From Dermatophagoides farinae (lineage: Eukaryota; Arthropoda; Arachnida; Sarcoptiformes; Pyroglyphidae): DNA of 64,000 nt. Position numbers and translations under genes: made by a program. The DNA is taken from positions 8,308,001 through 8,372,000 of the forward strand of contig NC_134678.1 of NCBI RefSeq assembly GCF_024713945.1. Direction: 5' to 3'. The notes below the pieces were generated by a model, which searched no databases, was not told where the DNA came from, and saw only the letters and a list, made by a program, of their open reading frames with translations. Below are positions 33,397-64,000 of this stretch, piece by piece (within the stretch, counting starts at the first letter, position 1; each line of letters begins with the position of its first letter).

Positions 33397-33417
33397 TTAG
33401 GTTTAGGTTAGGTTAGG
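33397..33417 (+). repeat. First TTAGG telomere repeats (proximal border)
   Basis: TTAGG, one TTTAGG variant, then two more TTAGG units. The G-rich strand is the + strand, so the chromosome end lies to the right. TTAGG is the canonical arthropod telomere repeat. Confidence 0.9.
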
Positions 33418-33428
33418 TTTTTTTTAGG

Positions 33429-33451
33429 TTTTTTTTAAATTAAAATTAATT
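33429..33451 (-). mobile_element. Micro-copy: poly(T) plus about 15 bp of an E-type 3' end
   Basis: Eight T followed by AAATTAAAATTAATT, then TTAGG again. Element E begins, after its T-tract, with AATTAAAATTAATTT, so this is an E-type tail truncated after about 15 nt. It is preceded by another short T(8) interrupted by AGG at 33,418-33,428. Confidence 0.65.
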
Positions 33452-33478
33452 AGGTTGGTTAGGTTAGGTTAGGTTAGG
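33450..33478 (+). repeat. TTAGG repeats with one TTGG variant
   Basis: Five units between the micro-copy and fragment A, including one GGTTGG variant. Confidence 0.9.
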
Positions 33479-33959
33479 TTTTTTTTTTTTTTTTGAAAAA
33501 AGAAAACTTTTATTTTTTTTTCAATTCATTTTTTAAAAAAAGATCGGCAAATGGCCAATCCAGCATTCAATACATATCATAATAATAATAAATGACAACA
33601 AAACATGTAATGGATCAAGGAAAAAAAAAAGAAAAAATAAAATGAAAAATAAAATAAAAGAATAAAATGAGAAATGTTAATGTGTAATTTTGATGACGGA
33701 CATATTTCTGGTAAAAATTACTCGCTAATATATGAATTTGGTTGACATATGAAAATTGATTGATCATCTGGTTGTTTCATCATTGATAATTCCTTGATGT
33801 TGGTGTGTTATGATTTCACGGAATGGTGGCCATAACAAACGGTATTGTGGTTCAATCAATGATAGTGGCCGGCAATCCGAAAAAGATGGTTGGGCTGGTT
33901 GGCTGATTTTGTTTTTTTTTTTTTTTTTTTTTTTTAGTGGTACTGAAACTGGGGGGGGG
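33479..33959 (-). mobile_element. LINE fragment A, 5'-truncated 3' UTR (F-like)
   Basis: Begins with T(16) on the + strand (the element's A-tail), then the 3'-terminal hairpin, then about 350 bp that resemble the 3' UTR of element F: CATCTGGTTGTTT, AATTCCTTG and GGAATGGTGGCCA occur in the same order near 40,210-40,290. A second T(24) tract at 33,912-33,935 followed by 15 bp may be another micro-copy. It ends in G(9) joined to TTAGG. Confidence 0.75.
33542..33560 (-). other. 3'-terminal RNA hairpin, fragment A
   Basis: In the transcript sense: GAU-U-GGC stem, loop CAUUU, GCC-G-AUC; seven pairs including one U-G. Confidence 0.8.
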
Positions 33960-33969
33960 TTAGGTTAGG

Positions 33970-34180
33970 TTTTTTTTTTTTTTTTTTTTAAAAACTAATA
34001 TTTATTTTTATTCCTTTAAAAACAGACCGGCAATGGCCAGCCCAGAAAATCAATCAAATACATGGTTCGAAGATACAATGGATTCAATAATGTGGAAAAA
34101 GAAAAAGAAAACAAACATAAAATAAAATAAAAAAAAGAAAAGAACTAATAAATAATAATAAAAAGAATTTGAATAGGGGG
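33970..34180 (-). mobile_element. LINE fragment B, strongly 5'-truncated
   Basis: T(20) tail directly after TTAGGTTAGG, terminal hairpin, then about 130 bp of A-rich 3' UTR. It ends in G(5), and the next element's T-tail follows with no TTAGG between. Confidence 0.75.
34025..34042 (-). other. 3'-terminal RNA hairpin, fragment B
   Basis: Sense strand GGCUGGC-CAUU-GCCGGUC: fully paired only as RNA because it uses two wobbles (G-U and U-G), which on the DNA + strand are mismatches. Confidence 0.8.
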
Positions 34181-34603
34181 TTTTTTTTTTTTTTTTTTTT
34201 TTAAAAAAATTGAATTTATTTATTAACCAAATTAAATTTGATCGGCTATGGCCAATCATTAAAAACATGATATAAAAATGGAATCAAGAATTTGGGTTGA
34301 CATCATGAAGCCAGAATGAAAAAATAAAAAATTTAACAGAATAGAATGAAAGAAAAGAAAAATAAAAGAAATTTTATCTGGCGAAAAGAGAAATGAATTT
34401 TGGTGTTGTTGTCGGACGTTTTCAGCATTCCCATTACCAACAATTGATTCGACATTACCCAGGTTTAAATATCTTTGGGCGGCCATCATTTTAACAATAC
34501 GGGTGAGGACTTCTTGTTGAAAAGCCGAAACCGTTTGTAAGGCGGCAATCACACGTAGTTTGGTGGAATCCTTAATCGTGCCATTTACGTCCATGAATTC
34601 TGG
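34181..34603 (-). mobile_element. LINE fragment C: ORF1 piece joined to a 3' end
   Basis: T(22) tail, terminal hairpin, short 3' UTR, then coding sequence for the end of an ORF1 N-terminal region (NGTIKDS…MMAAQRYLNLGNVESIVGNGNAENV, about 34,395-34,594). The same stretch occurs at 47,255-47,440. ORF2 is absent, so this is an internally deleted or gag-only element. The 5' end is cut inside ORF1 and followed by TTAGG. Confidence 0.75.
34239..34258 (-). other. 3'-terminal RNA hairpin, fragment C
   Basis: Sense UGAU-U-GGC, loop CAUA, GCC-G-AUCA; eight pairs with the central U-G. Confidence 0.8.
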
Positions 34604-34608: not shown

Positions 34609-34647
<39 letters not shown>

Positions 34648-34954
34648 TAATAGTTTATTTCAATTCAATAAAAGATCGGCATATGGCCAATCTCGGCAAT
34701 CAGAAAAATACAATAATTCAATCGATCATAATAATTCAATGAAAATAATGAGAAAAGAAAAACTAACAATAATAATAAAAGAAAAGGAATAAAAAAAATA
34801 ACTAATAAAATAGAAATTTTTATAATGGACATCTTCCAAGGTTATGTTACTTGTCCTAGATGAAAATTGATGATTGCGAGAGGATAATTTATTGCCAAAA
34901 TGATTTGCTTTTACATTGATTTCTATTTGTAATGATGAGAATGATGGATATATC
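34609..34954 (-). mobile_element. LINE fragment D, 5'-truncated
   Basis: TTAGG, T(33), hairpin, then about 260 bp of A-rich 3' UTR and TTAGG again. No coding sequence. Family not assigned. Confidence 0.75.
34674..34692 (-). other. 3'-terminal RNA hairpin, fragment D
   Basis: Sense GAU-U-GGC, five-base loop CAUAU, GCC-G-AUC. Confidence 0.8.
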
Positions 34955-34971
34955 TTAGGTTAGGTTAGGTT

Positions 34972-34974
<3 letters not shown>
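34955..34974 (+). repeat. Four TTAGG units
   Basis: Perfect tetramer array between fragment D and element E. Confidence 0.95.
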
Positions 34975-35014
<40 letters not shown>

Positions 35015-35043
35015 AAAATTAATTTATTGGCTGCTTTAAAATA

Positions 35044-35059
35044 GGCGGCAATGGCCACC
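35044..35059 (-). other. 3'-terminal RNA hairpin, element E
   Basis: Sense GG-U-GGC, loop CAUU, GCC-G-CC: outer pairs changed to G-C relative to the GAU/AUC families while the U-G is retained. Confidence 0.82.
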
Positions 35060-35122
35060 AATCAAAACGATGAATGGATCTCAATACAATGAAGTGTGTC
35101 GATGGCAATGAGAATAAAATAA

Positions 35123-35153
<31 letters not shown>

Positions 35154-36396
35154 AAACAAACCCAACATGCATAGAATATAAAAATAAATAAATAAATAAA
35201 TAAATGAATAAATATGAATGAATAAATATGTGTCCTGTGGATGCATGTTGGGGTGTATGTCTGTAATATAATTGTGTGTGTGTGTATCTGCAGCGTGTCC
35301 TATGTGGATATCTGTGTGAATGTGCTTGCATGCATCTAAGCATCCTATTGTTCAGACGGACGGAGCAGACAGTAAGCGAAGCGATGCGCACGACTTCAAC
35401 TCCTGGCTATTTTTAGCATCCTCGTAAGCAGGTAAATCCTACGTTACGCCGCGTCCCAATATTCAGCTTCTGTGTCCTATGTGATGTGGTGTCTGTACAG
35501 CAATGTATGTGTGGCTGCAGGGAGTGCTGCCGGCCAGTCAACGGGAGACCCGGACTGGTGATCGGTAAGCACTGAACCGGTGTGTATGTGTGTGTGTAAA
35601 TGTTTGTGTGAATGTTGTGTGTTGGTGTGAATCACTTGAACAAGAAAAAATTTTAAAACAGCCTATCACGCACATTAGGCAAATAAAACTGGGCAACTAT
35701 GCTTGATTTGCTCTCAGCTTAAATAGCCAAATCTGTTGCTTGCCAGCTAATCCTACCGCATTGACTTGATCTTGACTGATCACTAATACTAAAGGCCTAA
35801 CTTGGCTTGCCAATGAATTCGCGCGCTTGACACTAAGTGTCATTCAAATTTAAAAACATGCGCGTGGTGGACTGCCTATACATGTATGTGCGTGTGTGTA
35901 GTCTGTTCATTGTGTGTGTGATTGACTGCAGTATACATCATTTGTGTGTATGTCTTGTGTGACTGCAGCCAACGTGTGATGTTGACAGCTGAGCAGCTGG
36001 CCAACATATGTTTACAAAGCAATGTAAACTTACATCTTGTTGATCCACAATTTATTGCCATTCGATTCGATCCATCCATTCGTTCATGCCCGTGCGTGTT
36101 TGATTCACCACCAATTGACCCGTTGTTGATACTGTTGTTGTTGTTGATACTGTTGTTGTTGTTGTTGATACTGTTGTTGTTGTTGCTAATGTTGTTGTTG
36201 TTGCTACTGTTGTTGTTTGGATTCACCACCAATTTGCCATCAATCAACCAGAATTTTTGCCAATCACCTCATCTGCCCTAGACCACCAGTTGAGTTGGAT
36301 TCAACTGTCGCCACCAACCTGCCGATTAAACCACCGATTGCCACCAACGTTTCCACCAGCAACTAGACCATCCAATGGATCCGATAAGCAATGGTT

Positions 36397-36413
36397 GTTT
36401 ACGGGAACCACCC
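36397..36413 (-). other. Conserved 3' UTR motif, E copy 1
   Basis: GTTTACGGGAACCACCC on the + strand; partner copy 211 bp to the right. Found in the same paired form in element I. Confidence 0.6.
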
Positions 36414-36607
36414 ACTGGATTGCTTAACCATGGTTCAACAGGTGCTGTGTCCTGTGTGTGTGTGTATAGGTGTAGGATGGTTGTTGTGTCCTATGTGTGT
36501 TGATCATGTAAAAACTGGTGTAAGTATGTGTGTGTGTTCACTCTGTTGAGCACGGTGGAACCATGTTCAGCATTCGGGACCAGATTGATGCATTACTGAT
36601 GCCAGCT

Positions 36608-36624
36608 GTTTAGGGGAGCCACCC
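36608..36624 (-). other. Conserved 3' UTR motif, E copy 2
   Basis: GTTTAGGGGAGCCACCC on the + strand. Confidence 0.6.
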
Positions 36625-36964
36625 AGGAGACACCAGTGTCTTCGTCAGCTAGCCGGTACGTGTAGATACAAATGTTGTGTTCTATGTTGTGTGTGTTGTG
36701 TACTACAGGTGTTATGTATGCTTATGGAAAAATAAAAACTTCAGGAATAAAACCATAATAAATACTGTTTCGTGTTGTATCTGTTGTGTGTGTGTTCATC
36801 GGCTGCCATAAAAGTTTCGTCTGTGAACCAAGTCCGGTGATGATGCCACAGTGACCGCCCTCCGGGACCCGACTACAACGTCGGCCAACTTATTGGATTT
36901 CATCTTCTGACTAAACTATCGCAAATCACAATAATTGTTGTAGTTTAGGTTAGGAATGTCATCA

Positions 36965-36999
36965 GTAAAACCTCACGAGCTATGCTCGTGAGGTTTTAC
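36965..36999 (-). other. Post-ORF2 long hairpin, element E
   Basis: Perfect 16-bp inverted repeat GTAAAACCTCACGAGC around the loop TAT, ending 89 bp beyond the ORF2 stop in the 3' UTR. It is followed on the + strand by GGTCCCGGAGGTTAGG. The stem base differs from that in element I and in the 33.3-kb remnant by compensating changes. Confidence 0.85.
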
Positions 37000-37088
37000 G
37001 GGGTCCCGGAGGTTAGGTGATACGGCCCATGCGAAGCCCTCAGTGTACCCGGCGTGCCATCAATATTCCTGCCGGTTAACCCCCGCCA

Positions 37089-39938
37089 TCATCTATGAAT
37101 ACCACCTCTCAGCTGGTTGGCCAACATTGCCAGCTGTTCATAGAGAACCGCCTCCATTCGTGTGTGCTCTTCGGGGGACATACACATGCTTTTTGCGGTA
37201 GCATAGTCACGTCGTAAAAAGGCCGCTAATGGGCACTCAAAACGTAGATGACGGACACTCTGCTCTTGATGACCGCATTGACAGCTTGCATCTGAGGCAA
37301 AACCAAATTCCTTCAGATATTGGCCGAACTGCCCGTGACCAGTGAGCCCCTGCGTAAGCCAAAAGCTTATATATGGACTAAATTTTCTCACCTGGTCAAC
37401 TGTCTGGAACAATGACTTGACGGTCCGGCCGAATTTGTCGTTCAGATATTCTTGGTTCCATGCCGCCAACATTATTTTCCTCTGGTCCTTTTTCACGTAT
37501 GTCATTGGAATTTTCCTGTAGCTGAACTCCAAGTTGCTGGTGGATGTTCGTTTGGCGATTTTCTTCGTCTTGATCATTTGTTGATCTCCATTGTCAATTT
37601 TAAGCCATGCGATGGTGATATTTGCTGTCAGCCTGTTGACAATTTCTCTGGCCAGGTTCGATATCTTTTTGCTTCTCCTCTTCAGATGTTTGATGGCACC
37701 GATGTTGTTGCTGGTAACTGTTATTGGGGTTTCTGCAAAGCAGTTCTCTTGTCCCCAGGTGATGGCTTGTAGCACAATAAAGTGGTCGGCTTGTAGCATT
37801 GAGCAATATGGCGGAAGCCTGAACCTCTGCACATCGACCATACACATGTCTCTCATCACCGTGAAGCAGCAACCAATACCACTATTCTTTTTGATGATCT
37901 TGGTGAAGATATGAAACCTCGATCGAACCAGTGGTTGGCCAGCAAATATGTTCAACGATTCCACGCTTTTTACTTCAATATCTTCGACAACATCGGTAGC
38001 AACGAATTGACCATCATACGGATAATTTCTTCCAATCTTGGCCAGGGTGACATTCGCTAGGCATTTCATCTGAAGATGCAGTGGTGGTGTGTCGGCAATG
38101 GCGGTGGTGGCAATGAAGGATGCGGTTCGGTACGATTTCGTTATCAAATGGGCCCAAGGCCTCTGGAATCTTCTCAACTCTTTTTCAATATATTTAAAGA
38201 TTATGGCATGACTCCATGCACTGACAGCATACGTCAAGGTTGGTACCAAAATCGTGTCATATAACATTTTTACTATTTTTGGTGCGAGGCCATATCTTGA
38301 TCGTGCCATCCCAACCACCTGTTTGAAGATTCGCACTGATTTTTCCATGGCATACCGGAGATGGGGACGAAAATCCAACTTTCGATCGATAATCACTCCT
38401 AAAATCTTCATTTGATCTACTGGTGGAATTACGTTACCGTTGACCATGATCTGGGGCAAAACCGGTGGCCTTATCTTCCTTGTTATCAGGCTAATTGACG
38501 TCTTTTCGGACGCCAGCGATAGTTTACTGCCAGAGCACCAGCTGCCGATTTTTTCAATCAAACCGGTGATATCTGTTGCCAGTGTGTCCAGCGATTTGTG
38601 CCAAACAACTGCCGTTACATCATCCGCAAAAGCTTGGATGTGTATATTTGGATTAAATTTCGTCTGCAACAGTTGGTCGATGATAATGTTCCAGAACAAC
38701 GGACCCATGACAGATCCTTGAACGGTGCCTCTGTTTGTGGCTTTGCTTCTGGTTACGCCGCCAAAACTGGTGATCACATGCCTGTCATTTATGTAGCTGC
38801 CAATAATCTTGACGATATACCCCGGGATGCCTATTTCAATCATACGCTTCATCAGACCGGGCAACCAGGCATGATTAAAAGCCCCCTTGATGTCGAGGGA
38901 TACCAATGCCACATGTTGTTTCATTTGGAGCCTCTCTTCGATAACACTTCGGATCTTGAATAATGCATGTTCAGTGGACTTATTCCTACGGAAGCCAAAT
39001 TGATTGATCGATAATGGATTGTTGTTGCACATGAACGAATAAATCCTTGTCGCGATGATACTCTCCAGTGTCTTGGCCAGGATAGAAATCAAACCAATCG
39101 GCCTGAAGCTGCTGGCGGTATCGTAGTTGCTCCGTCCTGGTTTTGGTAATATTTTTACAATCGATAATTTCCACAGGTACGGGAAATAAGCCAAACGCAG
39201 ACAGGCATTCATCGTTGCGACGATAATGGCCGGCATATAAGCAACGACCTTTTTACATATGATTGGTGACAAATGATCGAAACCAGGCGCTTTTTCGTTG
39301 CCAACTTTGCTCACGACGTTCAGTAATTCGTACGTTGTTATGGCAATAAAATTATTAGACTCACCGCTGTCTGCCATCCATTGATCGACAAAATTGCGTG
39401 TCGCTTGTTGCTCCACGGTGTCATCAGCAATATCATCATCCGGAAACAGCTGTTTCAGCAGTTCATCAACCGTATTAACGGGATCACCATGATTGGCCAT
39501 TGTTCTTGCCGGTAGGATGTTGTGATGTTTCAGCAATCTGCATACTCGGTTATAATGTTGGTCATCGTTATCGCCACCGATTTGTTTTTGAAGATGATCC
39601 TCTTTCAACTGAGCAACACGACCTCTGTAATCAGCTCGCAGTCGGTTGTATTCAGTAATCAAGGTTGCCATTCGATGTCGATCCATTGTTCGTCTGATTT
39701 TTCGATACATTGATTTTTGCTCTTTGGCCAGTCTCCTTAACTCGACGTCATTTTGCCAGGGCAGCTTCCGTTTACGATTGACGTTATACAGACTCATATG
39801 CTTGTCGCACGCTGCTTTTATGCTGGTGGTGATGCAGCAGATAACGTAATCTAAATCGTTTTTGTTGTTGATGGCATTGATCGTCTCTACGTTAAGGTTG
39901 TGATCGTCGATATTACCCTCTAATGTGGCTGCCCAACC
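37089..39938 (-). CDS. ORF2 of element E: reverse transcriptase, 5'-truncated
   Basis: The frame is open from the stop at 37,089 to the truncation at about 39,938; the first ATG is at 39,797, but the coding homology (GWAATLEGNIDDHN…) continues to the break, so the ATG is not the real start. The endonuclease is missing. RT blocks are intact: LPKPGRSNYDTASSFRPIGLIS, LVSLDIKGAFNHAW, NRGTVQGSVMGPLFWN, QAFADDVTAVV and MKILGVIIDRKLDFRPHL. An RNase H-like region lacking its acids follows (GIGCCFTV…QADHFIV…TSNNIGAI), then the terminal zinc motif CQCGHQEQSVRHLRFEC. It copies the element's RNA onto target DNA. R1-like clade by motif order and zinc ending. No stop codons interrupt it, so it is young. 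Confidence 0.9.
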   Translation of the reverse strand, partial: GWAATLEGNIDDHNLNVETINAINNKNDLDYVICCITTSIKAACDKHMSLYNVNRKRKLPWQNDVELRRLAKEQKSMYRKIRRTMDRHRMATLITEYNRLRADYRGRVAQLKEDHLQKQIGGDNDDQHYNRVCRLLKHHNILPARTMANHGDPVNTVDELLKQLFPDDDIADDTVEQQATRNFVDQWMADSGESNNFIAITTYELLNVVSKVGNEKAPGFDHLSPIICKKVVAYMPAIIVATMNACLRLAYFPYLWKLSIVKILPKPGRSNYDTASSFRPIGLISILAKTLESIIATRIYSFMCNNNPLSINQFGFRRNKSTEHALFKIRSVIEERLQMKQHVALVSLDIKGAFNHAWLPGLMKRMIEIGIPGYIVKIIGSYINDRHVITSFGGVTRSKATNRGTVQGSVMGPLFWNIIIDQLLQTKFNPNIHIQAFADDVTAVVWHKSLDTLATDITGLIEKIGSWCSGSKLSLASEKTSISLITRKIRPPVLPQIMVNGNVIPPVDQMKILGVIIDRKLDFRPHLRYAMEKSVRIFKQVVGMARSRYGLAPKIVKMLYDTILVPTLTYAVSAWSHAIIFKYIEKELRRFQRPWAHLITKSYRTASFIATTAIADTPPLHLQMKCLANVTLAKIGRNYPYDGQFVATDVVEDIEVKSVESLNIFAGQPLVRSRFHIFTKIIKKNSGIGCCFTVMRDMCMVDVQRFRLPPYCSMLQADHFIVLQAITWGQENCFAETPITVTSNNIGAIKHLKRRSKKISNLAREIVNRLTANITIAWLKIDNGDQQMIKTKKIAKRTSTSNLEFSYRKIPMTYVKKDQRKIMLAAWNQEYLNDKFGRTVKSLFQTVDQVRKFSPYISFWLTQGLTGHGQFGQYLKEFGFASDASCQCGHQEQSVRHLRFECPLAAFLRRDYATAKSMCMSPEEHTRMEAVLYEQLAMLANQLRGGIHR

Positions 39939-39950
39939 CTTTACTTTATT

Positions 39951-39968
39951 TGCCGGACATGGCCAGCA
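39951..39968 (-). other. 3'-terminal RNA hairpin, element F
   Basis: Sense UGC-U-GG…CC-G-GCA: outer pairs U-A, G-C, C-G differ from all other families, the U-G is kept, and the innermost pair is lost (C/U). Confidence 0.72.
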
Positions 39969-40336
39969 TGAATAATATCATAATAATAATAAAAAAAAAT
40001 ACAAAGAAAATGATAATAAAACAATCAAAATTTGGAAAAAAAAAACAAAAAGAAAAATACAAATGATAAATTAAAATGTGTTCGATGTTGATATGTGTAT
40101 TTGTTGGATTATGTGTATTGCGTGTATTCATTGAAACAGTATGATAATTGGTGGTGGTCGAATTTGGTAAGATCATATTTTTTTTTGTCTCCCATAGGCG
40201 ACAGTGCTGCCATCTGGTTGTTTGAAAAACGATTAATTCCTTGCCACTTGTTTTTGTTCATGATGTTGGATTTCAAGGAATGGTGGCCAGATACAAATAC
40301 GGTAGATGGCGATGACTGCAACTCAAAAATCAGCGA

Positions 40337-40625
40337 CCAATGATGAATACCACAAACGAATATGATTTCGGCCAGTGATGATGATGATTACGGCCAGAAA
40401 TGATAACGATGGAGCCAAGAATGAGAGAGCCAGGTGGATGGAATGATGAAAGAGCCAATGATGAGCGATCCGACTGGTGGATCGTATAGCCAATGATGAG
40501 GGGATGGGAAGTGGGATAATGAATGATGATATATTTGATGATATGGTTCGAGACCATGTAAGCACAATTTTTATCAAAAAAATCACTGAAATTTTCAATC
40601 ACCATGCACGAAGAAAATTTCGATT
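40337..40625 (-). repeat. 3' UTR copy of the 289-bp non-terminal repeat of element F
   Basis: Aligned without gaps to 46,930-47,218: three mismatches in the first about 25 bp, then identical to the last base as read. It lies about 700 bp from the element's 3' end and about 1 kb past the ORF2 stop. Confidence 0.93.
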
Positions 40626-41614
40626 CACAACTGAGCAAATGATTTCTTTGTTTATATATGCTGGCATTGATCACAGAAAATATTTCGATGGCCAGTCATA
40701 AGCATGGTACAAATGATAGTTGTGATGATGATGATGATCAATTTCTTGATGATTCAATGGTAAATTAATCGAACAAAAACAAAATTTTTCTTGTGTTGAG
40801 CAGCGCGTTCGATGAAAAGCACACATAAAGTGGTAGCACGCTGTTTTCAGGGAAGCACACAAGAAGGCTCGAAACTATGTTAACTCAAATAGTTAATTTG
40901 TGTATCTTTTGGTGAGCAAATCAATAAGCTGGACTGCAGCCTTTTCATGTAGATGTGTGTTCATGATTGCTCACTTGAACGAGCCACAATATGTTCATAT
41001 ATGATGTGTACAATATTGTTGATGTTTACATTCGAGCAATATGTTGATCATCATCATTTGAATTATTTTCAACTGGTTATTCCAGCGTATTCTTAAAACA
41101 GATAAGTATCACAGCCAATTTGATCAATTTGTTAATTTTTTCTTTTTCTTTTCCCAAAATATCACTGGTCCATCCGAATGTTGATTGTGGCTTCAATTAT
41201 GGCATCATAACAATAATTCATGTTGGCTATCATCAGAATTTCGTGACAGTACCGTTATCTGGATGGCACTATGATCAATCGTAATGATGATTATGATGAC
41301 TTTGAATAAATAAATAACAATTTGATAATCCTACATGTGTGCAATTCTTGTGTAGATGTATCCTATGTGTGTGTGTAATGTTGGATTATGTGTTGTGTTC
41401 TGTGTGTGGTGACAATGATAATAAATACAATTTGTTAATCCTAAGTCTGTAATTGTGTTGTGTCCGATGTAAGGTGAAGAATAAAAGTGTAACAGTAAAT
41501 AAAAAAAAGAAGAAAAAAAACAAATGATTAAAAGAATGTTGATGAAAATCACTTAAATTAATTGATGAATAATTGATGAATAAAAATCACTGAATCGAAA
41601 CATTCTTCGGCTGA

Positions 41615-45193: not shown

Positions 45194-45236
45194 TTGGGCG
45201 AATTTAAGATGATCGATTTGGTGAACTTGGTGATTG

Positions 45237-50278: not shown

Positions 50279-50312
<34 letters not shown>

Positions 50313-52283: not shown

Positions 52284-52300
52284 GTTTACGGGAGCCACCC
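52284..52300 (-). other. Conserved 3' UTR motif, I copy 1
   Basis: GTTTACGGGAGCCACCC on the + strand, followed by TGGGACTGTCGG. Confidence 0.6.
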
Positions 52301-52521
52301 TGGGACTGTCGGTGCACATGACCAACATGTATCCCTGTTGTTGTATTCTTGTGTGTGTAAGTGAACGTCTGTTACATTGTTGTAATTCTTGTTTGTGTTC
52401 CTATACAATGATTTAAATTACTGTGTGTGTTGTCTGGTTAATTGTTGTGTTGATGGTCATGTTGTTGCGGTGAACACGATTCTTGGCAAACGCACTCCTC
52501 CGTGGTTGATGGACAGTAGCT

Positions 52522-52538
52522 TTTTACGGGGGCCACCC
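52522..52538 (-). other. Conserved 3' UTR motif, I copy 2
   Basis: TTTTACGGGGGCCACCC on the + strand, 238 bp from copy 1. Confidence 0.6.
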
Positions 52539-52725
52539 TGACACTGCCATCTGGTAATGCATTTGTGTACTTTGTGTGAATGAACGTCTGTTGCATATGT
52601 TGTGTCCAGTGGATGTGTCTAACAATTAAAATCTAGTAGGTGTGTAACGTGTGTGGATGTGTTTGCAAGTACCGTACCTAGTTCCTTCCCTAGTAAGGCT
52701 AGGTTAGGTTAGGTAAAGACATCGA

Positions 52726-52761
52726 GCCAAACCTCACGAGCTATGCTCGTGACGGTTTGGC
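52726..52761 (-). other. Post-ORF2 hairpin 1, element I
   Basis: Arms GCCAAACCTCACGAGC and its complement with one bulged base, loop TAT. The base GCC/GGC replaces GTA/TAC of element E. Confidence 0.82.
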
Positions 52762-52786
52762 GATGTCCCGGAGGAGTGCGTTTCGA

Positions 52787-52822
52787 GCCAAACCTCACGA
52801 GCTACGCTCGTGACGGTTTGGC
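52787..52822 (-). other. Post-ORF2 hairpin 2, element I
   Basis: Tandem copy of hairpin 1 (loop TAC), 104 bp beyond the ORF2 stop. Confidence 0.82.
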
Positions 52823-52925
52823 GGAGTCCCGGAGATCTGCCATACGTTGCTGTGCATGATGAGCTCTAAGCGTTGCATTGTGATCAATACCGGGACAGTG
52901 GCCATAAGTTGAATCGATGAATTGA

Positions 52926-55900: not shown

Positions 55901-56594
55901 TATCATGCACTTTCCAATCGTAAATATGGTCGATTATGTTGTTGTTCACTAATGAAAGATCGATGAATGAAAGAATACGTCGTTGACCACGTATAGTGTC
56001 GAACGTTGGTTTGTTGCCCTCATTTAGGATGTTGAGATTGAGATGTGCTATTGTTGACATGATTTCTTGACCACGATCGTCAGTGGTATCCGAGCCCCAG
56101 TATAAGGATTTGGCATTGAAGTCACCAGCAATTATACACTTTTTGTTGTTGGCGTGGTTGACTGTTTGTGTGATACAATTTAAGGTGTCGTTGATGCTGG
56201 TATTTGGCTCACAGTAAACTGAGGCGATGATAATGTCGTTGATGTTGGCAACAATGTAGTCGGTGTTTGACAGATGTGAAATGATTATCGATGGTAAGGC
56301 TGGGTTGAATGTGATGATGCAGGCACGAACAGGCTGTTGTTGATCACTGTTTGATTGTTGGCTGGTGGATGTCGATTGATTGATACGTGAACTTCGTCGT
56401 GTTACTCGCCGGTTGTTTGTTGTTGGTCGATTTGAATTGGTGGCGTACATTGGATTAAATTTCTTGTTAATTGATGGTAAATTGTTACGTAATGGTGGCT
56501 CACTGATTATGGCGATGTCGATATTTCTTTCGTCACAGAATTTGAGAAATTGTGTCAAAGCTGATGGTGATTTGTTACAATTGATTTGTGCCAC
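52926..56594 (-). CDS. ORF2 of element I: APE endonuclease and reverse transcriptase
   Basis: 1,222 codons, intact. The endonuclease starts VAQINCNKSPSAL and has ISEPPL, IAGDFNAKSLYWGS, FIDLSLV and LSDHRPITF. RT has LPKPGRDDYSKTNAYRPIGLIS, LISLDIRGAFDHTW, GTVQGSILGPLMWN and YADD (about residue 705). The RNase H-like segment (RGIGSAYMI…QADLFTI…TNNISTAQH) lacks the catalytic acids; the zinc ending is CCCGFRYQSVQHLINDC. The codon at 56,594 is GTG and the frame is open upstream through the ORF1 stop without any ATG. It supplies target cutting and first-strand synthesis. The RT core is closest in motif to E and F, but clearly a separate family. Confidence 0.92.
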   Translation of the reverse strand: MAQINCNKSPSALTQFLKFCDERNIDIAIISEPPLRNNLPSINKKFNPMYATNSNRPTTNNRRVTRRSSRINQSTSTSQQSNSDQQQPVRACIITFNPALPSIIISHLSNTDYIVANINDIIIASVYCEPNTSINDTLNCITQTVNHANNKKCIIAGDFNAKSLYWGSDTTDDRGQEIMSTIAHLNLNILNEGNKPTFDTIRGQRRILSFIDLSLVNNNIIDHIYDWKVHDNVHLSDHRPITFIITDQYINNQYDRSTTRWNTSNIDWNSWSTNIEQQLDDHNITPAIINNINDHNELDIVVIRITNFIQHACDQHCGKYRNKRTRPAKWTNNQSLKDIINKQKSIYRKIRRCHNPFAIERLKNEYLIARQQYRDLAQSLKDDEFNRYLNGYGPENCYQKVCRLLKNNDNMVARTIEGTYNPIDSTTKLVASLFPDDDFNDNDEQQVIRQHTNKWLSKNKSSNGIPPVSILELNNVVHKFQDGKAPGFDGISPKIVKSFWLFFPDIMLAIYNGCLRLNYVPYLWKSSIIRILPKPGRDDYSKTNAYRPIGLISVLGKVLERIMSIRITNHLTNNGHMSHHQYGFMAGKSTDHALLNLHNDIDTAISKFKHVCLISLDIRGAFDHTWHPFVIDQMIKYRTPKYLVQLINAYQNNRRITVSYGGVTCNKTTNRGTVQGSILGPLMWNLVVNDLLCKNFGFDVKIQAYADDVTMVVACDCINYMSIKINKILEMAACWGRKCKLTFSESKTKIMYVSKRIARPIYSPVRMNGSVIDPVKEIKILGIIFDHKLDYRPHIKHVVSKATRINKNITGIARKSYGLSPAVLRMIYHSITEPILSYGGIVTNKATTYQHIHKIFRQLVTPIAQQATKAYRTSSFISVTALADFPPIELYINFRSTVATARVTGKYLHNDQQVQVDINDNHNDDPSKRIATIIREPSVLPPTRIIIKSIKTARGIGSAYMIFSSTNITRINHFRLPLYCTIQQADLFTISKVFNMIQENHIHHTVYIVTNNISTAQHIGRRDRKNRQRLANELIDMALTNVIVAWNKIDKNEQWYQKLKKYAKRTANNRTREYDYQRMPLSYIKKYEQTKMMINWNTMYHRNRFGTNIKQLCPNVHDARKFVPFINKHVTQTITGHGQFGAYLAKFGISNDKKCCCGFRYQSVQHLINDCQLLNRLRNDYRSTINNTTNPNERTRLTAIFYQNIAIFADEHRLSIHRRHPP

Positions 56595-56625
56595 GCAGAT
56601 ACGGTCATTGTTGGATGTGGAATGA

Positions 56626-58515
56626 TTAATTAAATTGAATTTTATCGGCGATTCTCATTAACATTCTAGTATAGACTGGGCAGGATTTGCTGACACTATT
56701 GTGATTTATGTTGTCTCTGACCCCGGTTTTGATGCAATTGGCACATCGTGGTGCAAGATGTTGGTTTGGGCAGATGTTGTAGTTATGGCGACCACCGCAG
56801 TGGAAGCATAGCTGCTCTTCTGGTTTTAATTGACACTTTTCTGCTTTATGGTTGAATCCATAGCATCGATAGCATTGTCGTAGAGGAGACATATCCTCGA
56901 CATGAACCATTGAATAATCGAGAATTATTTTGCCACCCATGTCATTGATGATGATATCTCGAATTTTTGGATCTACGGTGATGCCATAGTTGATCAATCT
57001 ATCGCGGTTGCGAAAATTGGTACGTTCGTTTACAATTTGAACTGCTTTTTTGATATCGATATCGTTGCTTAAGACGTATATGTCTATTTGATGGTTAAAA
57101 CTAGCAAACATTTCTGGTATTTTGCTTTTGTCGATATCTTTTCTTACGCCTTTTAACATGATTGTTGGTGTCAATTTTCTTGGTGGTTCGGCAATGATGT
57201 TGGCGGTGGAGGCTGCGATGGTGTTGAATTTGTTTTTGCTGTCTTCATCACGGAAATCGAGGATCATTTTCCCATTGGAGAGACCTTGGGCATTTGTGAC
57301 ATCGATACCTTGTTTTGCCGGTTGAATTAATTCAGACAGCACTTTTCTTGTGGTGGTGGTATCGGTGTTGTCTCTGATGGATATCACTGTTTGGTGTTTG
57401 GGTGTTGCTGTGGTTTTGTTTTCTTTTAATATATCAGCAAATGAGATCGGCTTTGTTGTTGTATTGACGATATTATTGCTGGATTGTTTGTTCATTACAA
57501 TATCTGTAAGATTTTTTACACTATGCTTTAGATCAAGCAGGCACGTTTTCATTTCTGTGATGGTGTTTTGGCCATATTCGTTATCGTTGAAGACACTTTC
57601 TTCTTCCTCATCGCCCATATATAATTTACGTTTTGTGCTGGCCGACAGTTGTTCTTTGAGAGCTTGATTTTCGGTATACAGATTTATGGCGATTTTTAAT
57701 GCCGTAATTGTCTTGGCTTTGCTGGCACTGTTAATGTTGCCCTTTAGGCTCATGGCCATAGCCAGTGTTTCGTTGAGATATTGAAGTTCGTCTTCGTATG
57801 CATCCAGTGCTTGATCCGACGAGCTCGATGGCTTGTGTCTTGTGATTCTGGTTGTCAATGGTGATGGTATGGCTGTGTGTATGTGTGATGATGTTGTGTT
57901 CAATGGTGTGGATGGTCTGGATATTAATGGTATTTGAACACTTATTGGATTGGCATTTGTGTTGCCGGAAGTCAGTGAGAGTGCGTTTGTGTATGGTGGC
58001 GCTTGATACTGTTGATATGTGTATGGCTGTGACAAAAACTGTGTTTGTGGTGGTGGCATGAAGACAGTTGTTGGTGGCATATTCGGTTGTGTGTATGGTG
58101 GATATGTGTATTGTGCTGATGTGAATGGTGGAATACTGATTGGTGGTTGTGCATGACTTGTTGCAGCAGTACTTCTTGTTGTGTGTCGTTGTGGCATTGT
58201 GGTGTTCACTGTTGTTACAGTATGATTTGATGATGTATCTGGTTGTGTGACAGATATATATTGTGGATATGTGTATTGTGCTGATGTTGATGGTACAGTG
58301 CTAATTGGTGGCTGTGCATGACTTGTTGCAGCAGTACTTCTTGTTGTGTGTCGTTGTGGCATTGTGGTGTTTACTGTTGTTACAATATAATTGGAAGATG
58401 TAGCTGGTTGTGATGTTGTGTTGTGTCTTGTGTTTTTTGGTTGTGTAACTTCTTCGTAAGACATTGGGTGGTCTTCATTGCCGTCATCCATTCGATCATC
58501 AGGTGGATTCTCCAT
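56626..58515 (-). CDS. ORF1 (Gag-like) of element I
   Basis: 629 codons from the ATG at 58,515 (MENPPDDRMDDGNEDHP); upstream in-frame codons lack ATG. The N-terminal half is Pro/Thr/Ser/Gln/Tyr-rich and contains a duplicated block of about 55 residues (TTVNTTMPQRHTTRSTAATS occurs twice). Then comes a helical segment (GNINSASKAKTITALKIAINLYTENQALKEQL), the R1-type core (TVISIRDNTDTTTTRKVLSELI) and three knuckles: CYRCYGFNHKAEKC, CFHCGGRHNYNIC and CANCIKTG…HNSVSKSC. RNA-binding structural protein of the LINE particle. It ends 31 nt before the ORF2 GTG. Confidence 0.9.
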   Translation of the reverse strand: MENPPDDRMDDGNEDHPMSYEEVTQPKNTRHNTTSQPATSSNYIVTTVNTTMPQRHTTRSTAATSHAQPPISTVPSTSAQYTYPQYISVTQPDTSSNHTVTTVNTTMPQRHTTRSTAATSHAQPPISIPPFTSAQYTYPPYTQPNMPPTTVFMPPPQTQFLSQPYTYQQYQAPPYTNALSLTSGNTNANPISVQIPLISRPSTPLNTTSSHIHTAIPSPLTTRITRHKPSSSSDQALDAYEDELQYLNETLAMAMSLKGNINSASKAKTITALKIAINLYTENQALKEQLSASTKRKLYMGDEEEESVFNDNEYGQNTITEMKTCLLDLKHSVKNLTDIVMNKQSSNNIVNTTTKPISFADILKENKTTATPKHQTVISIRDNTDTTTTRKVLSELIQPAKQGIDVTNAQGLSNGKMILDFRDEDSKNKFNTIAASTANIIAEPPRKLTPTIMLKGVRKDIDKSKIPEMFASFNHQIDIYVLSNDIDIKKAVQIVNERTNFRNRDRLINYGITVDPKIRDIIINDMGGKIILDYSMVHVEDMSPLRQCYRCYGFNHKAEKCQLKPEEQLCFHCGGRHNYNICPNQHLAPRCANCIKTGVRDNINHNSVSKSCPVYTRMLMRIADKIQFN

Positions 58516-59256
58516 TGGTGATGATGTGTTTGACCGACTAAGTGTCGATTGGAGGGTTGATGTGTGAGTAACTTTCACGACTTTTTTAGCCAGTGTTGTG
58601 TGTTTGTTTTTTTTTTTTCACGTAAGATGATTAAATGAATGTAATGATTATGGTGAAATAGTTGTTTATTAAATTGAAAAATAATGATTGAGATTATGTA
58701 ATTTGAAAAATTTTGTTTTGTTTGTTTATTGAAATATTTATTGTAAGACAGACACCAATGTGTTTAAAAAGATTGTTTTAGACAAATGATATTGATAAAT
58801 TTATTGATGAAGAAATGTAATGAACTGATGGGTTATGAAAAAGATGTGTGAAAGAGAAAAAATTGTATTGAAAGCTAATTGACTATTTGTTATGGTGTTG
58901 ATCGTATGTGCTTAATGAAAATGATGTGTTGTATTGATAGCAATGAAACAGATCAACTGTGCAATAAGATGTGAAATTTTGACACCAAATTGATCAATGA
59001 TATGAAAATATCGGTACAATGATTGTATTTACCAAAGGATTAATTGTTTTATCGATGAATGGCTGATGTGTGGGCACTTGATGATAATGATGGTGTCAGT
59101 GATCTTGTATTAATGTAAACAATAATATGATGATGGAATGTAAACAAGGTCAGTGTAATCAATTGAATTGTGATGTGTGTAATAAACAATGGATAATGTG
59201 ATTATAATGACATACGATTGTTGGTTGAAGAAGTTTGAGCCAGATGATTTCAAATG
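58516..59256 (-). other. 5' UTR / promoter region of element I
   Basis: AT-rich, no ORF, bounded distally by TTAGG. A T(10) run lies at 58,609-58,618. No copy of it was noticed in the 3' UTR. Confidence 0.5.
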
Positions 59257-59266: not shown

Positions 59267-59394
59267 TTTTTTTTTTTTTTTTTTTAAAAAACTTTATTAA
59301 GGCGGCAATGGCCACCGAAAATCAATATAAAAAATAATCATAATTATGATTACAATTGTAGAAAAATAAAAATATAAAATTAACAATAATAAAA
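59267..59394 (-). mobile_element. LINE fragment J (about 130 bp)
   Basis: T(19), an E-like terminal hairpin (59,301-59,316, GG/CC outer pairs), about 80 bp of A-rich sequence, then GGTTAGGTTGG. Confidence 0.75.
59301..59316 (-). other. 3'-terminal RNA hairpin, fragment J
   Basis: Same 16 bases as in element E, although the flanks differ. Confidence 0.8.
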
Positions 59395-59404: not shown

Positions 59405-59436
<32 letters not shown>

Positions 59437-59462
59437 GAAAATAATTTATTATCAATCATAAA

Positions 59463-59483
59463 TGATCGGCAACTGGCCAATCA
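59463..59483 (-). other. 3'-terminal RNA hairpin, fragment K
   Basis: Sense UGAU-U-GGC, five-base loop CAGUU, GCC-G-AUCA. Confidence 0.8.
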
Positions 59484-59639
59484 AGGCAATCCAGAAAAAT
59501 AATAATACAATAATTCAATAATGAAAACAATTCTGTGAAGAGAAGAGAAAAGAAAACATAAAAATAGAATAATAAAGTAAAAATAATAACAATAAAAGAG
59601 GAATTTTTGAAACTCATCATATTCGTATAAATTATTTGT

Positions 59640-60115
59640 TGTGAAGAAAAATGATGGCACAAGGATGATTGGATTCCACGATATTTAGCGTTTGCGTCAT
59701 TTATTTCTGTTACCGGTGGCAATGATGATTGATATGTGAAAAAGTCAAGATTCGACAGCGATGATGGTGGTGGCAATTGGTAATGGTCCTGTAGTATCGA
59801 AAATAATAACTGGCACCAAGAATTGTATGTCTGCTGGTACTGTGAAACGCCAGGATTGAAGTTTGGCGGAATTTGATACGATGACATTTGAAAGTCGCCA
59901 TTTGTTGTTGTTGGTTGTTGTTGCTTGGTTTGATTGGACATGATCGGTTGTGCCGATGTTGTTGGTATTTCGATATGCGAAATTGGTTGTTCCATGTCTT
60001 CGTCGTTCGAGGTTCGACTCATGGTTGGCGATGGGATGGTTGATCGATCGTCGTCAGTGTCGTTGATGATTTTGAATGGCTTTCGGCTGCTGATGGTTTT
60101 TTTCCCGGTACCCAT
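59640..60115 (-). pseudogene. ORF1 N-terminal fragment of element K
   Basis: Starts MGTGKKTISSRKPFKIINDTDDD and is Ser/Thr/Pro/Gln-rich (TTSAQPIMSNQTKQQQPTTTNG), like the N-termini of the other ORF1 proteins. The similarity in style ends around NDANAKYRG; beyond that the frame runs into A-rich 3' UTR. The left limit is approximate. Confidence 0.55.
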
Positions 60116-60762
60116 CTATACCCGACGACCGAGCGTCCTAAATCACAAAAATCGATAAATAGATGGAGGATTGCCGCAGATTGTTTTGAAGCAATGGTAA
60201 TGAACACAAAGCACGAAGAAAATCATAAAGGTTGAAGAAAGAAAAGTGTGTCCTATGTTTCAACGTGTTGTGTTATTGATATGTTGTGTGTATCGATGAA
60301 GCCTTTCTTTCCAACTATGGCAACGATTCACTTGATGCAAATGTTGATTATTGATGATGATAAACCAAATGTTGTTCATAAGCTGACAGCATAACATTAG
60401 GTTTCGGGACGCGATTGATTGGTGGCTTTGGTGGCTTTATATATTGAAAATTTTTCTTGTCTCGAAACTTCATCAAGTTGTCCTAGCATTTTAATACATG
60501 GCTGGTGGTTGATATCGATGTTGTTGCTGTTGCTGACAGACTAAGATTCAATGGATTGATCGTGCTCAGATGATCATTATTGCTATCAGGCGTGATGACT
60601 ATTTGTATCAATTGATGATGGTGCTGCTGTTGCTGCTCACTTGATTCGGTGTTGTTGACAATTTTACTTTAGCCACGACATTACATTGATTTTGATGGAT
60701 TTGTTTTGATCATCAAATTATTTGAAGCTAAGTATTTTTGAATTATTTTGGAATTATTTCAT

Positions 60763-60769
60763 GGGGGTT

Positions 60770-60772: not shown

Positions 60773-60817
<45 letters not shown>

Positions 60818-60841
60818 TAATTTATTGGCTGCTTTAAAATA

Positions 60842-60857
60842 GGCGGCAATGGCCACC
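60842..60857 (-). other. 3'-terminal RNA hairpin, element E2
   Basis: Identical to that of E. Confidence 0.8.
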
Positions 60858-62167
60858 AATCAAAACGATGAATGACTCTCAATACAATGAAGTGTGTCGA
60901 TGGCAATGAGAATAAAATAATAAAAAATAAATAAATAAATAAACAAACCCAACATGCATAGAATATAAAAATAAATAAATAAATAAATAAATGAATAAAT
61001 ATGAATGAATAAAAATGTGTCCTGTGGATGCATGTTGGGGTGTATGTCTGTAATATAATTGTGTGTGTGTGTGTATCTGCAGCGTGTCCTATGTGGATAT
61101 CTGTGTGAATGTGCTTGCATGCATCTAAGCATCCTATTGTTCAGACGGACGGAGCAGACAGTAAGCGAAGCGATGCGCACGACTTCAACTCCTGGCTATT
61201 TTTAGCATCCTCGTAAGCAGGTAAATCCTACGTTACGCCGCGTCCCAATATTCAGCTTCTGTGTCCTATGTGATGTGGTGTCTGTACAGCAATGTATGTG
61301 TGGCTGCAGGGAGTGCTACCGGCCAGTCAACGGGAGACCCGGACTGGTGATCGGTAAGCACTGAACCGGTGTGTATGTGTGTGTGTAAATGTTTGTGTGA
61401 ATGTTGTGTGTTGGTGTGAATCACTTGAACAAGAAAAAATTTTAAAACAGCCTATCACGCACATTAGGCAAATAAAACTGGGCAACTATGCTTGATTTGC
61501 TCTCAGCTTAAATAGCCAAATCTGTTGCTTGCCAGCTAATCCTACCACATTGACTTGATCTTGACTGATCACTAATACTAAAGGCCTAACTTGGCTTGCC
61601 AATGAATTCGCGCGCTTGACACTAAGTGTCATTCAAATTTAAAATATGCGCGTGGTGGACTGCCTATACATGTACGTGTGTGTAGTCTGTTCATTGTGTA
61701 TGTGTGATTGACTGCAGTATACATCATTTGTGTGTATGTCTTGTGTGACTGCAGCCAACGTGTGATGTTGACAGCTGAGCAGCTGGCCAACATATGTTTA
61801 CAAGCAATGTAAACTTACATCTTGTTGATCCACAAATTATTGCCATTCGATTCGATCCATCCATTCATTTGTGCCCGTGCGTGTTTGATTCACCACCAAT
61901 TGACCCGTTGTTGATACTATTGTTGTTGTTGATACTGCTGTTGTTGTTGTTGCAACCGTTGTTGTTGGATTCACCACCAATTTGTCGTCAATCAATCAGA
62001 AAATTTGCCATCAATCAACCAGAAAATTTGCCAATCACCTCATCTGCCATGGACCACCAGTTGAGTTGAATTCAGCTGTCGCCACCATCCTGCCGATTAA
62101 ACCACCGATTGCCACCAACATTTCCACCAGCAACTAGACCATCCAATGGATCCGATAAGCAATGGTT

Positions 62168-62184
62168 GTTTATGGGAACCACCC
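62168..62184 (-). other. Conserved 3' UTR motif, E2 copy 1
   Basis: GTTTATGGGAACCACCC on the + strand; one base differs from E. Confidence 0.55.
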
Positions 62185-62380
62185 ACTGGATTGCTTAACC
62201 ATGGTTCAACAGGTGCTGTGTCCTATGTGTGTGTGTGTAGGTGTAAGGCGAATGTTGTATCTTGTGTGTGTTGAACATGTAAAAACTGGTGTAAGTATGT
62301 GTGTGTGTGTTCACTCTGTTGAGCACGGTGGATCCATGTTCAGCATTCGGGACCAGATTGATACACCACTGATGCCGGCT

Positions 62381-62397
62381 GTTTAGGGGAGCCACCC
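62381..62397 (-). other. Conserved 3' UTR motif, E2 copy 2
   Basis: GTTTAGGGGAGCCACCC on the + strand. Confidence 0.55.
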
Positions 62398-62737
62398 AGG
62401 AGACACCAGTGTCTTCGTCAGCTAGCCGGTACGTGTAAATACAAATGTTGTGTTCTATGTTGTGTGTGTTGTGTACTACAGGTGTTATGTATGCTTATGG
62501 AAAAATAAAAACTTCAGGAATAAAACCATAATAAATACTGTTTCGTGTTGTATCTGTTGTGTGTGTGTTCATCGGCTGCCATAAAAGTTTCGTCTGTGAA
62601 CCAAGTCCGGTGATGATGCCACAGTGACCGCCCTCCGGGACCCGACTACAACGTCGGCCAACTTATTGGATTTCATCTTCTGACTAAACTATCGCAAATC
62701 ACAATAATTGTTGTAGTTTAGGTTAGGAATGTCATCA

Positions 62738-62772
62738 GTAAAACCTCACGAGCTATGCTCGTGAGGTTTTAC
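62738..62772 (-). other. Post-ORF2 long hairpin, element E2
   Basis: Identical to the 16-bp-arm hairpin of E, 89 bp beyond the ORF2 stop. Confidence 0.85.
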
Positions 62773-62861
62773 GGGGTCCCGGAGGTTAGGTGATACGGCC
62801 CATGCGAAGCCCTCAGTGTACCCGGCGTGCCATCAATATTCCTGCCGGTTAACCCCCGCCA

Positions 62862-64000
62862 TCATCTATGAATACCACCTCTCAGCTGGTTGGCCAACAT
62901 TGCCAGCTGTTCATAGAGAACCGCCTCCATTCGTGTGTGCTCTTCGGGGGACATACACATGCTTTTTGCGGTAGCATAGTCACGTCGTAAAAAGGCCGCT
63001 AATGGGCACTCAAAACGTAGATGACGGACACTCTGCTCTTGATGACCGCATTGACAGCTTGCATCTGAGGCAAAACCAAATTCCTTCAGATATTGGCCGA
63101 ACTGCCCGTGACCAGTGAGCCCCTGCGTAAGCCAAAAGCTTATATATGGACTAAATTTTCTCACCTGGTCAACTGTCTGGAACAATGACTTGACGGTCCG
63201 GCCGAATTTGTCGTTCAGATATTCTTGGTTCCATGCCGCCAACATTATTTTCCTCTGGTCCTTTTTCACGTATGTCATTGGAATTTTCCTGTAGCTGAAC
63301 TCCAAGTTGCTGGTGGATGTTCGTTTGGCGATTTTCTTCGTCTTGATCATTTGTTGATCTCCATTGTCAATTTTAAGCCATGCGATGGTGATATTTGCTG
63401 TCAGCCTGTTGACAATTTCTCTGGCCAGGTTCGATATCTTTTTGCTTCTCCTCTTCAGATGTTTGATGGCACCGATGTTGTTGCTGGTAACTGTTATTGG
63501 GGTTTCTGCAAAGCAGTTCTCTTGTCCCCAGGTGATGGCTTGTAGCACAATAAAGTGGTCGGCTTGTAGCATTGAGCAATATGGCGGAAGCCTGAACCTC
63601 TGCACATCGACCATACACATGTCTCTCATCACCGTGAAGCAGCAACCAATACCACTATTCTTTTTGATGATCTTGGTGAAGATATGAAACCTCGATCGAA
63701 CCAGTGGTTGGCCAGCAAATATGTTCAACGATTCCACGCTTTTTACTTCAATATCTTCGACAACATCGGTAGCAACGAATTGACCATCATACGGATAATT
63801 TCTTCCAATCTTGGCCAGGGTGACATTCGCTAGGCATTTCATCTGAAGATGCAGTGGTGGTGTGTCGGCAATGGCGGTGGTGGCAATGAAGGATGCGGTT
63901 CGGTACGATTTCGTTATCAAATGGGCCCAAGGCCTCTGGAATCTTCTCAACTCTTTTTCAATATATTTAAAGATTATGGCATGACTCCATGCACTGACAG
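62862..64000 (-). CDS. ORF2 of element E2, C-terminal part (cut by the window edge)
   Basis: At least 379 codons, open to the right edge. Covers FQRPWAHLITKSYRTASF, the RNase H-like region and CQCGHQEQSVRHLRFEC, with the same sequence as the end of ORF2 in element E. Whether the endonuclease is present lies beyond the window. Confidence 0.9.
   Translation of the reverse strand, partial: VSAWSHAIIFKYIEKELRRFQRPWAHLITKSYRTASFIATTAIADTPPLHLQMKCLANVTLAKIGRNYPYDGQFVATDVVEDIEVKSVESLNIFAGQPLVRSRFHIFTKIIKKNSGIGCCFTVMRDMCMVDVQRFRLPPYCSMLQADHFIVLQAITWGQENCFAETPITVTSNNIGAIKHLKRRSKKISNLAREIVNRLTANITIAWLKIDNGDQQMIKTKKIAKRTSTSNLEFSYRKIPMTYVKKDQRKIMLAAWNQEYLNDKFGRTVKSLFQTVDQVRKFSPYISFWLTQGLTGHGQFGQYLKEFGFASDASCQCGHQEQSVRHLRFECPLAAFLRRDYATAKSMCMSPEEHTRMEAVLYEQLAMLANQLRGGIHR

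Follow-up and report, generated by a model that had tools for sequence, protein, structure and literature searches.

In Drosophila, the elements HeT-A, TART and TAHRE form a head-to-tail array at the chromosome ends, with the 3' end towards the centromere. Athena-type Penelope elements are retroelements located at the telomeric repeats of rotifers; to our knowledge, Penelope-like telomeric elements have no apurinic/apyrimidinic (APE) endonuclease and encode a TERT-like reverse transcriptase (RT) of a different class. Among the long interspersed nuclear elements (LINEs) of the R1 clade, TRAS carries CCHC zinc knuckles in its first open reading frame (ORF1). According to passages of two published accounts, silkworm TRAS and SART insert in TTAGG repeats in opposite directions, and Bombyx keeps these repeats with a weak telomerase (PMC7265360, PMC4700185). 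Passages of the first account place TRAS between the C and the T of the CCTAA strand, with a nick at TT^AGG and an orientation opposite to that of SART, join the poly(A) of SART to the AGG of the TTAGG strand, report an internal start of reverse transcription in the 3' untranslated region (3'UTR) of SART1, and describe the loss of telomerase and short telomeric repeats in Drosophila (PMC7265360). Here, we analyse a stretch of 64,000 nucleotides of the mite Dermatophagoides farinae (the window; contig NC_134678.1, here C2, positions 8308001-8372000), whose right part is an array of LINEs and TTAGG tracts. The reading that we favour, with a probability of about 75%, is that the telomere at the right end of C2, like those at most other ends of chromosomes, consists of TTAGG-targeting APE-endonuclease LINEs, one R1-like lineage of the TRAS type in several families, interleaved with TTAGG.

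The genome comprises 62,435,336 bases in 22 contigs, ten of them large (C1 to C10, with L and R for left and right ends); a passage of the assembly paper gives 62.43 Mb and ten pseudochromosomes (PMC11074847). C2 is 8,394,931 bases long, and the window, which contains no N, ends 22.9 kb before its right end. The window stops short of the chromosome tip, as the array continues on C2 past 64,000: further LINEs (E11 to E13) are followed by 7.5 kb of N and by a C/T-rich stretch to the contig end, in which TTAGG was not seen. Within the window, 11 LINE copies or fragments (E1 to E11) of several related families occupy 33,479-64,000 head to tail, and every one has its poly(T) or 3' end at the left, which places all of them on the minus strand; an earlier note on this DNA had counted at least ten minus-strand copies of several families, which agrees with our count. 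There are 15 tracts of (TTAGG)≥2, all at 33,403 or further right and on the plus strand; the minus strand of the window and its first 33.4 kb have none. TTAGGTTAGG has 44 matches in the window (overlaps counted) against 0 in 100 dinucleotide shuffles. The plus-strand TTAGG that the earlier note saw between the copies holds for the strand of all tracts but not for every boundary: E2|E3 carries GGGGG and E5|E6 nothing, while TTAGGTTAGG at 36,945, 52,704 and 62,718 lies inside LINE 3'UTRs and not between elements. Tracts of at least two TTAGG or TTGG units account for 360 of the 30,604 array bases (1.2%).

Relatives of these LINEs are concentrated at scaffold ends. A search with ORF2 of E5 returned at least 48 matches (a lower bound, with 47 of 114 first-look candidates scored). 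Among the matches scored at ≥35% identity, 36 of 38 were within 50 kb of a scaffold end, distributed over 11 ends, and these 50-kb end zones represent 1.7% of the ten large contigs. The other two are the halves of a single palindrome at C5:2.83 Mb, and thus the dispersal of the same elements in internal euchromatin, which the earlier note regarded as incompatible with a telomere, was not what we found, which supports its reading of a telomere built of retrotransposons. It also proposed to inspect other chromosome ends for the same families; arrays of this kind are present at many ends, with junctions of the TTAGG-T19 pattern at 15 of 20. The 3' end points inward in 34 of the 36 near-end matches, the exceptions being C4:35754 and C4:7087764. 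With E8 as query, 46 matches gave the same picture by eye, with further internal ones at 28-29% identity. In a tree of 15 ORF2 proteins, all from the D. farinae genome, the 12 array proteins (C5 locus included) were separated from three internal ones with branch support of 100/100. RNase H was present in the three internal ORF2 proteins examined and was not detected at E≤0.001 in the seven array ORF2 proteins scanned.

The junctions between LINEs and TTAGG point to these repeats as the target. The TTAGG-T19 pattern occurs at 43 sites, 39 of which fall in the outer 50 kb of a scaffold and 42 in the outer 60 kb; the sites further in are three on C2R at 52-53 kb and one at C5:2.83 Mb, and none was found near C1L, C2L, C5L, C5R or C9L. 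The TTAGG strand with its poly(T) runs outward in 39 of the 42 near-end sites, two at C8L and one at C9 being the exceptions. Runs of T≥14 directly follow TTAGG or TTGG in 25 of 31 cases in 17 fetched stretches, compared with control runs of T≥10 at five left-end loci, of which 0 of 29 follow TTAGG and 1 of 29 TTGG. The other six T≥14 runs include one inside E1, two away from LINE ends and three (E2|E3, E11|E12 and C4R) after extra Gs that are absent from the homologous copies. All TTAGG junctions read GG and then T. On the opposite side of the elements, 11 of 23 hand-picked 5' boundaries start with GGTTAGG (null 0.157, p = 3e-4), a phase that microhomology confounds, as do 8 of 20 when boundaries with G-run flanks are left aside (p = 0.008, likewise hand-picked); this is the phase expected from the published TRAS site between the C and the T of CCTAA. 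Taken as a sign of a fixed second-strand cut, this phase is suggestive yet confounded by microhomology. G runs were also observed at LINE 5' truncation points (33951-33959, 34176-34180, 60763-60767 and near 2060-2066 of the fetched stretch L027), and where a homologue was at hand (34176 and L027) they are absent from it. Outside the arrays, none of the 11 interstitial (TTAGG)≥4 loci listed on C1-C3 is a TTAGG-T19 junction; they were rejected as LINE targets, the 4 of 11 that were read all belonging to one inverted-terminal-repeat element of ~0.95 kb that is not a LINE.

The proteins encoded in the array are consistent with this targeting. Pfam detects RT in three frames of the window and an APE-type endonuclease in two of those three. 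Both ORFs are present in E6 (39941-47216, minus strand, without the extreme 3' end) and in E8 (50279-59255, minus strand, about 9.0 kb, its 5' limit estimated from the next TTAGG). ORF2 of E6 (41615-45256, minus strand) matches Exo_endo_phos_2 at 5.1e-17 and RVT_1 at 6.3e-35, and ORF2 of E8 (52926-56654, minus strand) likewise has Pfam matches to the APE endonuclease and RT. ORF1 of E6 (45237-46793, minus strand) and of E8 (56626-58617, minus strand), the two examined, each carry one strict CX2CX4HX4C knuckle, at residues 440 and 582, respectively. These frames are open, and the motifs of endonuclease and RT are conserved in nine telomeric ORF2s: GDFN and SDH in 9/9, Y/FADD in 9/9 and QxN...SEPP visible in 7/9. 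The endonuclease of TRAS1 (1wdu) is the best match among solved proteins, at 3e-26 for E8, 4.7e-15 for E6 and 2.9e-26 for a third query, with R1Bm behind at 2e-6 (E8).

From the orientation, the presumed nick site and the nearest endonuclease, the best reading is that the mite LINEs work like silkworm TRAS. As in TRAS, an R1-clade element of Bombyx mori and other insects, the target is TTAGG, the sense strand is the CCTAA strand, the junction is compatible with a TT^AGG nick, and the APE endonuclease is most like that of TRAS1 among solved proteins. The CCHC knuckle in both mite ORF1s examined is a further likeness. Differences are the mite host, the several families in this one orientation (apart from the exceptions listed above), the small share of TTAGG in the array and a hairpin module after ORF2 in three mite families, described below. 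Many copies in the mite telomere are also truncated, whereas a passage of a review attributes only full-length elements to Bombyx telomeres (PMC4700185). SART, of the same clade in silkworm and Tribolium, is also a TTAGG-specific LINE, but the mite elements lie in the opposite orientation and their junctions do not show its join of poly(A) to AGG. An internal start in the 3'UTR, as in SART1, may be compared with E7 (47256-50076, minus strand), which has neither a 3' end (no poly(A)) nor a 5' part and whose C-terminal ORF2 frame (48883-50088, minus strand) was a 43% match in the E5-ORF2 search. E7 starts directly on TTAGG without its 3' end, as if reverse transcription had begun inside the 3'UTR. 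With HeT-A, TART and TAHRE, the mite array shares its position at the end, the inward 3' ends and the predominance of LINE sequence, but the mite keeps TTAGG and TERT, and its poly(T) usually sits on TTAGG. Athena and other Penelope elements differ from E6 and E8, which have Exo_endo_phos_2 and RVT_1, a LINE RT. The earlier note had likened the array to both TRAS/SART and HeT-A/TART; the silkworm TRAS comparison fits better, and the Drosophila one in orientation and LINE content only.

TERT is encoded at one locus, C1:166455, in an 850-aa open frame with matches to Telomerase_RBD (3.8e-16) and RVT_1 (1.8e-13) that also matches the solved telomerase RT. Among the 18 tips read (10 left and 8 right), TTAGG in the right direction was present at four, C3R, C4R, C7R and C6L. 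At C7L, right-direction TTAGG lies behind 2.5 kb of N. The tip of C10R is degenerate, C3L begins with N, the terminal TTAGG of C4L and C6R is in the wrong direction, and nine of the 18 tips have no TTAGG. Given these tips and the TERT gene, the statement in the earlier note that the organism still has TTAGG is correct.

If nicking, priming, telomerase activity and chromosome lengthening proceed as proposed here, LINE RNA would be carried to the telomere, and the endonuclease would cut into the TTAGG strand at GGTT^AGG, releasing a 3' end of GGTT that would pair with the poly(A) tail and prime reverse transcription. The other strand would be joined at or near CC^TAA, frequently via microhomology of a few bases and frequently with the 5' end not yet copied, and the retained telomerase would supply new TTAGG landing sites. 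Several observations weigh against this reading. The reversed control of the TTAGG-T19 pattern gave 31 matches against 43, and as the places of the control matches are not listed, it is the location of the sites and not their raw number that speaks. A poly(T) after GG cannot separate GG^, GGT^ and GGTT^. At 6 of 8 5' boundaries with a homologue there is microhomology of 1-5 nt, and the boundaries were hand-picked, so the 5' phase is no proof of a cut at a fixed position. At some LINE|LINE boundaries (E2|E3, E5|E6, E11|E12, E12|E13 and C4R), there are either Gs alone or no intervening bases. Internal RNase-H LINEs also match TRAS1 best among endonucleases, and that match alone therefore does not place the family. 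Lastly, two near-end ORF2 matches and three near-end junctions are in the opposite orientation.

An alternative that we consider unlikely, and which may coexist with TTAGG targeting, is end attachment as in Drosophila, in which LINE RNA is reverse transcribed onto a 3' overhang without an endonuclease cut and telomerase heals the new end with TTAGG. The inward 3' ends almost everywhere, the many 5'-truncated copies and the very short TTAGG tracts between LINEs would fit such a process, and the TTAGG microhomology at those 6 of 8 boundaries and the non-templated G runs (E2|E3 and C4R) resemble chromosome healing. However, TTAGG or TTGG lies directly before 25 of the 31 poly(T) runs, GG still precedes the poly(T) at the three boundaries that have poly(T) and lack TTAGG, and the endonuclease motifs, for which end attachment has no need, are conserved across the families examined. 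Boundaries that lack TTAGG were rejected as evidence proving end attachment: compared with E11|E12, E5|E6 has a deletion, and the poly(T) at E11|E12, E2|E3 and C4R is still preceded by non-homologous Gs. E12|E13 has neither TTAGG nor poly(T).

It is very improbable that these are ordinary LINEs with no TTAGG targeting, merely piled up in gene-poor subtelomeres and copied from end to end by recombination. Exchange, or else copying in the very recent past, does take place: 34,968-45,276 and 60,766-71,429 (the second running past the window) form a duplication of ~10 kb at ~98% identity, 2,076 bp are identical between two C1R copies, and ORF2 pairs from different ends are up to 99-100% identical, which indicates recent copying or exchange. 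As the duplicated block holds both E5 and E11, these two are not independent. Direct TTAGG-poly(T) junctions and a single orientation are nevertheless unexpected from such accumulation, and nine of the ten weaker matches of the E5 query (<35% identity) are internal, the tenth being a short C7L fragment, so that LINEs in general are not restricted to ends. Within the duplication, the 3'UTR and ORF2 of E6 match those of E12 at ~98% identity, and the sequences upstream are unrelated by blastn; the break, at 45276 and C2:8379429, appears to mark a chimeric 5' part. E6 also has a 289-bp direct repeat (99%) near both ends (40337-40625 and 46930-47218), which recalls the non-terminal repeats of TART; such repeats were rejected as a family trait, as a related C1R copy has the 289-bp repeat in 3'UTRs only.

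The least probable explanation is an assembly artefact in which telomeric and repeat reads were wrongly stacked at scaffold ends: head-to-head arrays (C5 and near the C9 end), wrong-direction TTAGG (C4L and C6R), the inverted C8L array, N blocks and (TTAGG)2 words sprinkled in a C7R copy would suit it, but junctions of one type are found at many ends with differing flanks, the copies differ in sequence and truncation point, and the window is without N. The scaffold ends are partly misordered, and the array of the N-free window agrees with arrays elsewhere. C5:2827501-2835500, in the middle of a 5.4 Mb scaffold, is a palindrome of array LINE sequence whose arms are 99.6% identical over 1,004 bp and 94.9% over 3,280 bp. 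It is probably a misjoin; since neither C5 end has a TTAGG-T19 junction, C5 may consist of two halves that meet telomere to telomere, either through an assembly error or through a real fusion. At C9:3577901-3580900, about 12 kb from the scaffold end, the order is head to head (subtelomere, TTAGG, LINE, CCTAA, subtelomere). Wrong-direction terminal TTAGG pieces or arrays at the right end of C6 and the left ends of C4 and C8 (an inverted array) suggest misoriented end contigs. In C7:4929501-4932500, (TTAGG)2 words occur at ten or so places of a LINE 3'UTR where the window copy, in the one position compared by eye, reads GTTGTTGG; these words are probably a polishing artefact near a contig end.

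Directly after the ORF2 stop, the copies E5, E11 and E8 and those at C3R and C4L have at least one hairpin (AAACC..CACGAGC/GCTCGTGAGGTTT) and CCTAACCTAA(CC), a module found in three families. In E5, it lies at 36945-37011 (minus strand), with the hairpin at 36968-36996 and CCTAACCTAA at 36945-36954, and in E8, two hairpins and CCTAACCTAACC lie at 52702-52835 (minus strand). C4L_15211 has a hairpin in the 164 nt after ORF2. Neither part was found in the 450 nt after ORF2 of E6, E12, E7 and the C5 locus, or in C7L_39255 (230 nt), C7L_10169 (184 nt) and C10R (62 nt). Searched with a tolerance of one mismatch, the exact-arm hairpin pattern was found at 11 sites, of which ten are close to ends and one adjoins the C5 array. 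Positions 32,000-64,000 had no Rfam match at E≤1, and the 3'UTR hairpins therefore belong to no described family. A dispersed element, the one of ~0.95 kb mentioned above, has (TTAGG)4-5 beside a hairpin of AACCTCACC-TTCG type; this hairpin has 14 exact copies, all internal, and resembles the hairpin and CCTAACCTAA module of the telomeric LINEs.

The predicted LINE RNA reads CCUAACCUAA, which is complementary to the TTAGG primer strand, and from this we infer a guiding role for the module. In a bolder version, which we put forward tentatively and hold to be rather improbable, telomerase would be reduced to making short landing pads while almost all telomeric DNA is produced by one LINE lineage with its several families. 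In three of these families, the CCUAACCUAA beside the post-ORF2 hairpin, similar to a telomerase template, would pair with the TTAGG primer strand and steer the RNA to chromosome ends. If true, these LINEs would carry their own telomere guide, and the system would stand halfway between the telomeres of silkworm and Drosophila. On the favoured reading, the 3'UTR module is a specific candidate for the means by which LINE RNAs of this kind locate telomeres.

Regarding the surroundings, a DC-STAMP-like host ORF (28897-29628, minus strand; PF07782, 3.2e-23) is the last Pfam-matched ORF to precede the array. The array thus starts 3.8 kb beyond this ORF, and not about 2 kb beyond the last host gene as the earlier note had it, a distance measured from Pfam-matched sequence, unrecognised exons in between not having been sought. 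Subtelomeric sequence with two hairpins (32994-33396) has a relative at the C6 left end, where 32994-33451 is matched at 86% identity, and similar words occur at C9 3.578 Mb. It is followed by a first, degenerate TTAGG tract (33397-33478, plus strand) and by short 3' pieces, which comprise E1-E4, E9 and E10, all on the minus strand: E1 (33479-33950, poly(T) on its left), then nine Gs (33951-33959), E2 (33970-34175), ending without TTAGG in the non-homologous GGGGG of 34176-34180, E3 (34181-34601, 93% identical to a C6L copy) and E4 (34609-34954). A (TTAGG)4 tract (34955-34974, plus strand) marks the 3' end of the 5'-truncated E5 (34975-39940, minus strand), whose RT frame (37089-39977) matches RVT_1 at 1.3e-32 and which is 98% identical to 60766-65713. 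E6 and E7 are separated by a TTAGG tract at 47217-47255 (plus strand), and E7 and E8 by the longest one of the window, of about 40 units (50077-50278, plus strand). To the right of E8 follow E9 (59267-59393, minus strand), E10 (59406-60762, minus strand) with GGGGG at 60763-60767, and E11 (60773-64000, minus strand), an E5-family LINE that runs past the window to C2:8374048.

In the open literature in PMC, our search, which left subscription papers, preprints and repeat databases outside its scope, found no description of telomeric LINEs in a mite. The scabies mite is reported to have TTAGG on at least sixteen contigs, in passages that do not mention LINEs (PMC4641413); in an ostracod, a link between LINEs and telomeres was looked for and none found, according to a passage of PMC7998251; and the main text of the russet mite paper contains no telomere word (PMC7738191). 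What is new here is the mite host, the TTAGG share of 1.2% in the array, the many truncated copies and the 3'UTR module of hairpin and CCUAACCUAA. If the favoured reading is true, telomere-targeting LINEs with retained telomerase are not confined to insects and also occur in a medically relevant arachnid, and such a LINE-rich array makes the step from a telomerase telomere to a LINE telomere testable within one small genome.

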